A stretch of DNA of 64,000 bases from contig NC_013729.1 of the NCBI RefSeq assembly GCF_000024345.1, positions 3,782,001-3,846,000 on the forward strand, given 5' to 3'. The stretch is from Kribbella flavida DSM 17836. GTDB taxonomy: Bacteria; Actinomycetota; Actinomycetes; Propionibacteriales; Kribbellaceae. Positions 23,182 to 26,898 of this stretch are shown here, in pieces (the first letter of the stretch is position 1; each line of letters starts with the position of its first letter). Under the pieces are notes generated by a model, which was not told where the DNA came from, ran no database searches, and saw only the letters and a list, made by a program, of their open reading frames with translations. Made by a program: the position numbers and the translations under genes.

Positions 23182-23371
23182 GCCGTTGCTGCCGGGGGAG
23201 TAGATGAGACCTCTTTGACGCAGCGCCCAGCAAATGACCGAGCGGACCAGCTCGCGCTGTCCGCGAGCGTGCCCGGACGGGTTGTCCTTGCGAAAACCAT
23301 TGGTGCCCGGCTCCCTGCGCTGATGGACTGACGTCCCATCGTGACTCTGCCGCGTAACGGAGGTAGCGGTT

Positions 23372-24127
23372 GTGACGGACTATGACGTGCTTGCCGAGGT
23401 GTACGAATGGCTCATCGCAGAGGCAAAGTTGCCTCCAGCCGAGTTCGCCGCGTCGTTCGATGACGTCCTCAGTCTCCTGCCGTCGAACGCTCACGTGCTC
23501 GACTGTTCGTGCGGAACCGGACAGTTGGCGGTTGGCCTCGCCGGTCGTGGCCTGCAGGTTGTCGCAACTGACGCCAGCGAAGCGATGGTTCGCCGGACTG
23601 CAGAGTTGTCTGCGGAGTTCGGGGCATCCGTCCGGGCTGTGCGGGCGAACTGGGAAGAGTTGCCCGACCATTTCGAGGACGACACGTTCGACATGGTGTT
23701 CTGTGTCGGCAATTCGCTTCACCATGCCATGGGCGCGACCGGCAGGGGTGCTGCTCTGGAGTCGATGTCACGCCTTCTGAGCCCTGGCGGGCGCTTGGTA
23801 CTCACCTCCCGCACCTGGGAACTCGTGAGGGCCAGAGGTTCCCGGCTCGACATCAGTGACCGACTCGTCCGCCGGAACGGTCGCGATGCCGTCGTGGTCT
23901 ACCGCTGGGAGATTGCGCCGCAGTGGGAGGAGGAGCACCACATCGAGATTGCGATCGCGCAAGTTGATGCGACCGGGTCGGTTCTTGTCCGCTCGGAACT
24001 GCTGTCCTGCTGGCCCTACCGGTACGAGGAACTCGAAGTCGAGCTGCACCGGGTCGGACTCCGGACTGAAGTGAGCACGTTCGATCTGGAGGCCGAGAAC
24101 TACATGGTGGTCGCGAGCAAGGTATAA
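23372..24127 (+). CDS. SAM-dependent methyltransferase next to dif
   Basis: A 251-residue class I methyltransferase. It has HVLDCSCGTGQLAVGL as motif I, VVATDASEAMV, and DTFDMVFCVGNSLHHAMG. The GTG at 23372 has GGAGG 9 nt upstream. Codons ending in T or A (ttg, gtt, agt, gaa) are noticeably more frequent than in neighbouring genes, hinting at acquisition from another genome. It ends 17 nt before a dif-like site. The substrate is unknown; the protein resembles glycine/sarcosine- or small-molecule methyltransferases. Confidence 0.85.
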   Translation: MTDYDVLAEVYEWLIAEAKLPPAEFAASFDDVLSLLPSNAHVLDCSCGTGQLAVGLAGRGLQVVATDASEAMVRRTAELSAEFGASVRAVRANWEELPDHFEDDTFDMVFCVGNSLHHAMGATGRGAALESMSRLLSPGGRLVLTSRTWELVRARGSRLDISDRLVRRNGRDAVVVYRWEIAPQWEEEHHIEIAIAQVDATGSVLVRSELLSCWPYRYEELEVELHRVGLRTEVSTFDLEAENYMVVASKV

Positions 24128-24144
24128 CCACTCGGACCACCAGT

Positions 24145-24172
24145 AGTTGACATAATGTCCATTATCGGCGCT
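24145..24172 (-). other. dif: dif-like chromosome dimer resolution site
   Basis: Read on the minus strand this 28-bp site has a XerC-type arm AGCGCCGATAA, a 6-bp centre TGGACA, and a XerD-type arm TTATGTCAACT. By my alignment it matches E. coli dif at 20 of 28 positions, including the inner dyad ATAAT/ATTAT and the right arm TTATGT-AA-T. The GATAAT, centre, ATTATGT layout is also what I recall of actinobacterial dif sites. Such sites mark the replication terminus of circular chromosomes and are recombined by XerC and XerD. Confidence 0.75.
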
Positions 24173-24187
24173 CTATTGGAGGCGGCT

Positions 24188-24691
24188 TCAGCGTGCTCCC
24201 GGCGCTTGGTTCCAGCTGGGTGTGAAGTCGGCGCTCTGCACGTACTGCATCGCCGCGACGTACTTCGGGTCGGTCATCCGCTCGGCCATCTCGGCCTCGG
24301 TCAGCTCGGCGACCCGGGACTGGATCCAGTACAGATTGCCGAACGGGTCGCGGACCCGGCCGACCTGGTCGCCCCAGAACAGCTCGGTCACCTCGGTCAC
24401 CGACGTCCCGCCGGCGGCGACCGCCTGCCGGTGGGTCGCCGCCGCGTCCTCGACGTACAGCCGCAGGAACGCCGGCGTCACCGGCCAGTCCGGCCGGGAG
24501 TCGAACATCATCACCATCGCGTTGCCGATCCGCATCTCCGCGTGCCCGATCACGCCCTGGTCGTCGACCACCCGGCCGCAGTCCTCGGCGTCGAACGCCC
24601 TGGTCAGGTAGTCCATCAACGCGTTCGTGTCGTGCGAGATCATCCAGGGCGTGATGGTGGTGTAGCCGGCCGGGATCGAGTCGAAGCTCAT
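24188..24691 (-). CDS. VOC-family (PhnB-like glyoxalase-fold) protein
   Basis: The 167-residue protein is a single VOC module of the PhnB/YcgI type. It starts with ITPWMISHDTNALMDYLTRAF and ends with GRVRDPFGNLYWIQSR, the expected final strand. A C-terminal extension contains MTDPKYVAAMQYVQ. The start ATG follows AAAGG about 8 nt upstream on the coding strand. It lies just inside the dif-like site, between the two dif-like sequences. Confidence 0.83.
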   Translation of the reverse strand: MSFDSIPAGYTTITPWMISHDTNALMDYLTRAFDAEDCGRVVDDQGVIGHAEMRIGNAMVMMFDSRPDWPVTPAFLRLYVEDAAATHRQAVAAGGTSVTEVTELFWGDQVGRVRDPFGNLYWIQSRVAELTEAEMAERMTDPKYVAAMQYVQSADFTPSWNQAPGAR

Positions 24692-24862
24692 GGTGGTGCC
24701 TTTCTGCTGCGGTCGTTGACATCCACAAAGCTACGGCGGGTAGCGGACAGGTACTGTCCTCTTCTCGACTTGGCCCTGACGCGGCGCCAGCCCTCAGTGG
24801 ACCGAGTACGCCGAACGCGGCAACCATGGCACCGGCAACCGCCATGAATGCCTACCTCGCCG

Positions 24863-25009
24863 CTGTATCGCGCGCTCGTACGTCACCGATCCCCGCGACG
24901 TCGAGTACCTCGACGCGCTGGAGCCAGGCCTAGCCGAGTGGTTGCGGGACGCCTCAACGCCGCCGCGGCCGTCCAGGGCGTCGACGCGGAGATCGCGAGC
25001 CGGCCGTGA
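24863..25009 (+). pseudogene. Decayed 3' fragment of a TipA-type MerR regulator
   Basis: The plus strand reads LYRAL, then after a frame change YVTDPRDVEYLDALEPGLAE and WLRDA, then after a further one-base loss NAAAAVQGVDAEIASRP and a stop. The LYRAL-x-YVxDPR and EPGLAEWLRDA patterns are those of the TipAS ligand-binding domain of MerR-family regulators. At least two frameshifts and the loss of the DNA-binding half show that it is a dead remnant. It lies between the two dif-like sites. Confidence 0.5.
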
Positions 25010-25058
25010 TCCAGCCGGTCCCCCGGCCGGGGTGAGAACCCCTCTCGGCGGAGATGCT

Positions 25059-25086
25059 GTCATGCATAATCACCATTATGCAGCAC
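25059..25086 (+). other. Second dif-like dyad upstream of tyrosine recombinase
   Basis: GCATAA (25064-25069), centre TCACCA, and TTATGC (25076-25081) form a perfect 6-bp inverted repeat with the same 6-bp spacing as dif. The outer arm positions diverge from dif. The site is 94 bp upstream of a tyrosine recombinase start, so it may be that enzyme's own target. A palindrome CCCCGGCCGGGG lies at 25021-25032. Nothing else is recognisable between 25090 and 25180. Confidence 0.45.
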
Positions 25087-25180
25087 TTCTGACATTCGGT
25101 TGCTCTCAGCAATCAACTCTGGCGGGGCGGCTGATCGGCCGCGGGCAAACTGTCGGTGGCGCCCGGTAGGAACTGCGGGT

Positions 25181-26137
25181 ATGAGAGTGCTCGACGCGCA
25201 GGCCGCGTTCTTCGCCGCCCGGCGGCCGCGGAAGGACTCCCCGCACACCACCGCCGCCTACCGCCGCGACCTCGCCGGCATCACCGCGCTGCTGACCGAC
25301 GACCCCGACAGCCTCCAGGTCGAGGACCTGACCGCGCCGGCGCTGCGCGCGGCGTTCGGTGCGTTCGCGGACGGCCACGCGAAGAGTTCGGTGCTGCGGG
25401 CCTGGTCGACGTGGAACCAGTTCCTCACCTTCTGCGTGTCCGACGGTCTGCTCGCCGGCAACCCGATGGGCGCGGTGGCACGGCCGAAGACCCCTCCCCT
25501 GTCCCCCAAGCCGCTGCGTGGTGAGGACACCCCGGAGCGCCTGTTGCAGGCCGCCGCCGACGGCGTACGCCGGGGGCGCGATCCGTGGCCGGAGCGGGAC
25601 GTGCTGGTGATTGCGCTCGGGCTGGTCGCCGGGCTGCGCTCGGCCGAGATGCGCATGCTGACGGCCGACTCACTCGCCGGGCGTCCCGGTGAGATGCGCC
25701 TGCACGTGCACGGCAAAGGCAGCCGGGACCGGTCGATCCCGGTCGAGCCGATCATGGAGCGGATCATCGCGGCGTACCTCGACTCGTGCGCCCGGCGCTT
25801 TCCGCGCAAGCGGTTCGGCCGCAGTGCGAAGCTGCTGCTGGACCGCGAGGGCAGCCCGATCGGCCGCGGCGGCCTGGAGTACCTGGTGAAGTCCTGCTAT
25901 CGGTGGGCCGGCCTGCACGACCGCGTCCCGGTCGGTGCGAACTTGCACGCCCTGCGGCACACCTTCGCGACCCGGCTGGCCGAGGACGGCGCCACCGCGT
26001 CGGAGATCATGGCTCTACTCGGCCACGCCAGCCTGGCCACCAGCCAGAACTACATCGAAGCCACCGGCCGCGAGCAGCGCGCCGCTACCGCCAGCAACCG
26101 CACGTACCGGACCCTCGACAAGGTGCTCGACGAGTAG
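25181..26137 (+). CDS. Tyrosine recombinase/integrase (Xer-like)
   Basis: The 318-residue protein has the size and two-domain build of XerC/XerD. An N-terminal SAM-like core-binding domain (about residues 5-100) precedes the catalytic domain. All catalytic residues are present: Arg153 in AGLRSAEM, Lys179 in HGKGSRDR, the HALRH motif with His256 and Arg259, His282 in LLGHAS, and the nucleophile Tyr291 in SQNYIEAT. AGGAA lies about 10 nt before the ATG. It is close to two dif-like sites. It could be a housekeeping Xer protein or the recombinase of a small integrative element; the usual actinobacterial xerC and xerD contexts are not present. Confidence 0.88.
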   Translation: MRVLDAQAAFFAARRPRKDSPHTTAAYRRDLAGITALLTDDPDSLQVEDLTAPALRAAFGAFADGHAKSSVLRAWSTWNQFLTFCVSDGLLAGNPMGAVARPKTPPLSPKPLRGEDTPERLLQAAADGVRRGRDPWPERDVLVIALGLVAGLRSAEMRMLTADSLAGRPGEMRLHVHGKGSRDRSIPVEPIMERIIAAYLDSCARRFPRKRFGRSAKLLLDREGSPIGRGGLEYLVKSCYRWAGLHDRVPVGANLHALRHTFATRLAEDGATASEIMALLGHASLATSQNYIEATGREQRAATASNRTYRTLDKVLDE

Positions 26138-26189: not shown

Positions 26190-26898
26190 GTGACGAAACG
26201 TTTCGTGCTCAAGCTGTCGGGTCAGGCGATCGCCGGCGGCGACACCTTCGGCTTCGACAGCGACCGGGTGACCCATCTGGCCACCGAGGTGCTGGCCGCC
26301 CGGGCCGCCGGGGCGGAGATCGCGGTGGTGATCGGTGGCGGCAACGTGTTCCGTGGCAACCGGTCCGAGGAGTGGGGCATCGACCGGGTCGAGGCGGACA
26401 ACATCGGCATGCTCGGCACGGTGATCAACGCGGTGCTGCTGCGGAGCCGGTTGACGACGCTCGGCGAGTACGACGTCCGGCTGATGACGGCGATCCCGAT
26501 CAACAACCTGGCCGAGCCGTACATCCGGCTGCGGGCGCTGCGGCACCTGGCGAAGGGCTCGATCGTGGTGCTGGCCTGCGGCAACGGTCAGCCGTTCACC
26601 ACCACGGACTACCCGGCCGTGCAGCGGGCGATCGAGCTCGGCGCGCACGGATTGCTGGTCGCGAAGAACGGCGCCGACGGCATCTACGACGCCGACCCGA
26701 ACAAGGTGCCGACGGCGCGACCCTTCGAGCGGCTGGGCTACCAGGAGGCGATCGACCGGCAGCTGCGGGTGATGGACCAGTCGGCGTTCGTCCTGGCCCG
26801 CGACCACCGGCTCCCGCTGCACGTTTTCGACATCGACCCCCCCCGGTGCGGCGGCCGCGATCTGCCGCAGTACGCCGGTCGGAACGGTGGTCAGCTGA
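26190..26898 (+). CDS. UMP kinase-like protein (paralogue), frameshift near the 3' end
   Basis: The sequence encodes an amino-acid-kinase-fold protein close to bacterial UMP kinase: FVLKLSGQAI, IGGGNVFRG, NIGMLGTVINAV and AKNGADGIYDADP. It would phosphorylate UMP to UDP. The GTG at 26190 has GAGGAAGG 8 nt upstream. As given, a run of eight C residues (26837-26844) shifts the frame; with seven, the protein continues DIDPPGAAAAICRSTPVGTVV and stops at 26896-26898 after 235 residues, the normal length. The canonical pyrH lies between tsf and frr, so this isolated, divergent copy is probably a paralogue. Confidence 0.75.

Follow-up and report, generated by a model that had tools for sequence, protein, structure and literature searches.

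The window analysed here, 64,000 nucleotides at positions 3,782,001-3,846,000 of the Kribbella flavida DSM 17836 genome, contains two dif-spaced dyads, the second of which precedes a gene for a tyrosine recombinase. The features are as follows:

24145..24172, minus strand: site 1, the chromosomal dif, by match to published actinobacterial dif
24173..25058, no strand assigned: spacer from dif to site 2, with a passenger VOC gene and a TipAS remnant
24188-24691, minus strand: VOC gene (PF00903)
about 24803-25030, plus strand: TipAS remnant, weak match (23.1 bits, curated cut-off 23.8 bits)
25059..25086, no strand assigned: site 2, predicted site of the third recombinase, 28 bp, found in exactly the Kribbella gene carriers
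25181..26137, plus strand: third Xer-like tyrosine recombinase, 318 aa (PF00589 and PF02899)
26190..26844, plus strand: UMP-kinase-like (AA_kinase) neighbour (PF00696)

Read on the minus strand, site 1 consists of the XerC arm AGCGCCGATAA, the core TGGACA and the XerD arm TTATGTCAACT, and it agrees with the Frankia alni dif, CACGCCGATAATGCACATTATGTCAAGT, quoted in PMC3025954. The genome is complete and consists of a single contig of 7.58 Mb that starts with dnaA; site 1 is located at 50.2% of the contig from that gene. Site 2 has the arms GTCATGCATAA and TTATGCAGCAC around the 6-bp core TCACCA, and its end lies 94 bp upstream of the ATG at 25181. The sequence-only reading had reported a second dyad with dif spacing (GCATAA-TCACCA-TTATGC) and a complete recombinase reading frame 94 bp behind it, and was accurate on both counts. 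When the window was searched with the pattern CATAATNNNCATTAT at up to two mismatches, sites 1 and 2 alone were retrieved (four strand hits, chance mean 0.09), and at zero to one mismatch the shared dyad pattern is confined to these two sites in the whole genome. Between them, the same reading had placed a VOC gene, which is indeed present, and a dead TipA fragment, for which a plausible remnant is left, its match falling just under the cut-off. Comparison across genera revealed no conserved element in the DNA that separates dif from site 2, and the module of site 2 and recombinase gene holds no phage or element genes. The UMP-kinase-like gene (family F4 of our locus map) is often the downstream neighbour in Kribbella carriers and lies outside the core module; near its end, a run of eight C (about 26840-26850) may be a frameshift or a sequencing error.

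All 38 Kribbella genomes have one copy of dif; G028 contains an additional weak match at three mismatches. The Kribbella dif starts with GTTGAC in 37 of the 38 genomes and with CTTGAC in G033, and most Pseudonocardiaceae loci have CTTGAC or CTTAAC in this place; these start letters weakly suggest that the Kribbella dif itself was not imported. A methyltransferase gene cassette of about 850 bp (window positions about 23276-24127) lies no more than about 3.2 kb from dif in 13 of the 38 genomes, 12 of which share one orientation, and occurs in carriers as well as in non-carriers of the third recombinase. Its copies are 88-96% identical, compared with 70-88% for other genes in the area, and it looks like a cassette that moves among dif regions.

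Relationships of the third recombinase

The third recombinase combines a Phage_integrase domain (PF00589) with a SAM-like domain (PF02899) and contains all six catalytic residues (R-K-H-R-H-Y), features that place it in the tyrosine recombinase superfamily. None of these residues is lost in any of the 36 proteins of the family that were examined, 25 from chromosomes and 11 from plasmids, and the gene is under purifying selection, with a dN/dS of about 0.1 within Kribbella. Among solved structures, Escherichia coli XerD (1a0p) is nearest by sequence. The same genome encodes an XerD that scores above its model cut-off and an XerC-like protein, to which the third recombinase is 35% and 32% identical, respectively. 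Against the curated XerC and XerD models it reaches 146 and 117 bits and thus stays far below both cut-offs (335 and 330), and in a tree of 69 proteins calculated with a quick method it belongs to a clade of 25 of its own, apart from XerC and XerD and sister to actinobacterial plasmid recombinases. Judged by model cut-offs and clade, it is an orthologue of neither XerC nor XerD and is extra to the usual pair, a point that the sequence-only reading had put up for checking. Assignment to the XerS family is likewise not indicated, as the score against the XerS model NF003462 is too low (48.5 bits, cut-off 267) and the core of the predicted site has 6 bp and is not of the 11-bp difSL type.

The closest kin outside the chromosomal family are recombinases from plasmids of Mycobacterium, Mycolicibacterium and Rhodococcus (33-41% identical). 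In 10 of 12 plasmid homologues examined, a set that does not include the matches on Mycobacterium ulcerans, M. liflandii and M. pseudoshottsii plasmids, an 11-6-11 dyad that is either site 2-like or a coherent variant of it lies upstream of the gene; the Rhodococcus plasmid variant reads TTGCTAGATAA-N6-TTATCTAGCAA. On the Rhodococcus plasmid pN2, two unlike 11-6-11 dyads precede the recombinase gene, with each arm type present once. As the plasmid homologues are accompanied by the same kind of dyad, resolution of plasmid multimers is likely to be their related job; we found no functional description of these plasmid recombinases. Phage relatives are more remote, the best among the matches listed being about 30% identical. 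The exact site 2 palindrome occurs in 21 viral contigs, none of which encodes a homologous recombinase at E 1e-3; since, in addition, most of these contigs are AT-rich, we ascribe this occurrence to chance. A phage origin of the module was rejected on these grounds.

Site 2, its gene and its tie to dif

Site 2 follows the consensus tSATGSATAA-N6-TTATSCATSa with an 11-6-11 bp layout. Over the 126 loci compared, the arms change little (T-S-A-T-G-S-A-T-A-A and complement) and positions 12-17 are variable, which defines arms of 11 bp and a core of 6 bp. A C-to-G change affects both arms at once in Saccharothrix and in Kribbella G033, as would be fitting if a single protein reads both arms; in Lentzea, it is found on one arm only. 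Site 2 is no copy of dif; its arms are different, and their inner TTAT resembles the XerD arm of dif.

Within Kribbella, the gene is present in 15 of 38 genomes (85-91% identical), and site 2 occurs, as one copy each, in exactly these 15 and, like the gene, is absent from the other 23 (p about 6e-11 for the concordance). The two findings that the sequence-only reading had named as fatal, relatives with the same gene order and no dyad or a housekeeping recombinase present everywhere, were accordingly not encountered: dyad-less relatives lack the gene as well, and more than half of the Kribbella genomes compared do without it. On an rpoB tree, the distribution of carriers requires two changes, which could be two losses from an ancestor that had the system or two gains, and among Kribbella carriers gene distances track those of rpoB (Mantel r 0.68). 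The Kribbella protein is 86% identical to its Amycolatopsis counterpart, and the corresponding values for XerD and XerC are 65% and 61%; transfer of the gene between the Kribbella and Pseudonocardiaceae lineages is therefore likely. The gene tree places Kribbella within the Pseudonocardiaceae, non-significantly (AU p 0.17).

A scan of GTDB contigs with the protein alone yielded 80 loci (75-91% identity), nearly all from Kribbella and Pseudonocardiaceae and mostly from the latter. Site 2 is present in all 80, dif lies nearby in 79, the exception being a contig end, and the order is always dif, site 2, gene. Two names among the 80 look misplaced, namely Streptomyces sp. SID13031 (identical to Kribbella G036) and Rhodococcus rhodnii. 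A class-wide sample of 394 genomes added 29 carriers with E-values below 1e-70, the one pair measured being about 58% identical; site 2 was found in 29/29 and dif was in reach in 22, at 286-954 bp. In the family sample f20 (61 genomes), the gene is present in 22, site 2 in 24 and both in 21. The system is absent from 344 or more sampled genomes besides the 23 of Kribbella, and also from G003, in which it was probably lost. In Saccharothrix luteola NEAU-S10, the module is found on two scaffolds with identical spacing, either as an assembly duplicate or as a true second copy.

The median distance between dif and site 2 amounts to 500, 469 and 474 bp in three locus sets, with a maximum of 4.2 kb. 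In Kribbella and Pseudonocardiaceae, site 2 is typically located 60-130 bp upstream of the gene. There are 27 loci in which the gene is 1.1-7.4 kb away from site 2 or on its far side; 24 of these loci have a dif, and there site 2 is still 281-1206 bp from it. Site 2 is thus tied to dif beyond its link to the gene. In six loci of samples f20 and f40, dif is inverted or lies on the opposite side of the module, which suggests that the module was placed near dif more than once.

Carriers without XerC and dif

Most carriers keep XerCD/dif. Ten carriers from sample f20, themselves mostly drafts that share ancestry, possess one strong XerC/D match only and are thus without XerC; for seven of them, the tree shows this sole match to be of the XerD type. 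In these seven, whole-genome scans detected no dif at up to two mismatches, and in the remaining three no dif was found in the 3-20 kb around site 2. In f20 carriers with XerC, dif lies within 1.3 kb of site 2 in all 13 that could be checked (Fisher p about 1e-5). XerD was examined in eight XerC-less carriers (the proteins of G473 and G493 were left out), and six of them (L355, L356, L359-L362) have lost the catalytic tyrosine and kept the XerD reading frame; the open frame is perhaps retained because XerD still serves without recombining, for instance in SMC unloading. The six catalytic residues of the third recombinase are intact in the XerC-less carriers, and site 2 is still there. Some non-carriers in sample f20 also lack a second strong XerC/D match, so that loss of XerC is not restricted to genomes with this system. 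Were an XerC-less chromosome linear, the system would have to be kept for something other than dimer resolution. In a check for a linear chromosome, no terminal inverted repeats were found in the dif-less G475; as guides to the origin, the skew was too noisy and dnaA was not among the sampled stretches.

Possible roles of the site 2 system

One gene is linked to one cognate dif-like site, and this site adjoins dif, half-way around the genome from dnaA in K. flavida. We consider it probable that gene and site form a single-recombinase system of the Xer type, probably derived from a plasmid, that resides beside dif as a second and sometimes sole terminus recombination system. Against this reading stand the many sampled genomes that live without the system and the non-carriers that likewise have no second strong XerC/D match. 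The two 11-bp arms of site 2 are nearly identical, and the recombinase most likely binds both of them; it would act as a homo-oligomer and, across the 6-bp core, would recombine site 2 copies on sister chromosomes or on the halves of a dimer. Dimers would thereby be resolved at the terminus next to XerCD/dif and without depending on it, possibly with a need for FtsK. Actinobacterial plasmids likewise carry members of this family together with a site of this kind, so that the system was probably recruited from a plasmid-type replicon, its chromosomal site being held in a narrow zone around dif.

In having one tyrosine recombinase and its own terminal site near the gene, the system resembles XerS/difSL of Streptococcus and Lactococcus and XerH/difH of Helicobacter and Campylobacter, both single-recombinase systems (reviewed in PMC5357621), and the suggestion in the sequence-only reading of a lone recombinase with an adjacent site on the XerS/difSL model has gained good support. 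XerS and XerH, however, act in place of XerCD/dif and have about 355 residues, whereas the 318-residue protein usually occurs beside intact XerCD/dif, as in K. flavida, and the difSL core has 11 bp instead of 6. With XerCD/dif it shares the fold family (from sequence models), the catalytic residues and a 28-bp, 11-6-11 terminus site, but it differs in its low identity, separate clade and symmetric non-dif arms. Its sister clade has the same or a coherently varied 28-bp dyad upstream of the gene; those recombinases are plasmid-borne and have no dif, whereas the present one is chromosomal and beside dif. IMEX and the pdif modules of Vibrio and Acinetobacter also bring a further Xer-type site to dif or its vicinity, but these use host XerCD on dif copies, while site 2 is non-dif and comes with its own recombinase. 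A search of the open-access literature turned up no previous account of an Xer-type site that accompanies dif and is served by a recombinase of its own, though such an absence is weak evidence.

The reading put foremost at the outset, an Xer-exploiting integrative element inserted at dif by Xer recombination and bounded on both sides by a dif-like site, draws on the two dif-spaced dyads around 890 bp and on the seemingly horizontal acquisition of the gene in Kribbella. It is nevertheless highly improbable: an IMEX-type insert has two flanking dif copies, but dif is single throughout Kribbella, the arms of site 2 are different and site 2 exists only where the gene is; moreover, Kribbella and Pseudonocardiaceae share the gene order around unrelated intervening DNA, and element genes are missing. 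We regard it as equally improbable that site 2 is a mere operator through which the recombinase gene is controlled by its own product or by a different regulator. Its palindromic nature and usual position upstream of the gene would suit an operator, but half-sites and core have the exact Xer geometry, and among the 27 loci with a displaced gene, those that have dif still have it no more than 1.2 kb from site 2.

The tight placement near dif would also agree with a role without recombination, i.e., marking the terminus or unloading SMC complexes, the latter being ascribed to XerD near the Bacillus terminus (Karaboja 2021, as cited in PMC8357415). This is quite unlikely, since the catalytic residues are intact in all family members examined and catalysis is apparently selected. 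Unlikely, too, is a variation of XerCD in which the third recombinase pairs with XerD, or XerC, on site 2 or dif. Such pairing would account for the XerD-like inner TTAT and for the XerD frame retained in XerC-less carriers, but the nearly symmetric, co-varying arms are what one protein would predict, and most XerD proteins of XerC-less carriers examined have lost the catalytic tyrosine. Given the terminus placement, the plasmid kin, the conserved catalytic residues and the persistence without XerC and dif, we favour a putative second dimer-resolution system.

More tentatively, and with somewhat less than even confidence, we propose that this plasmid-derived system resides beside dif in several actinobacterial families, works in parallel to XerCD/dif and took over in some lineages after XerC, dif and XerD catalysis had been lost, which would make these lineages living intermediates of XerCD replacement. 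The compact pair of recombinase and 28-bp site is also offered for actinomycete genetics. The pairing described here may show how single-recombinase systems come to replace XerCD: carriers of both systems, carriers of the new system only and non-carriers coexist in cultured genera, so that gain, coexistence and takeover are testable.
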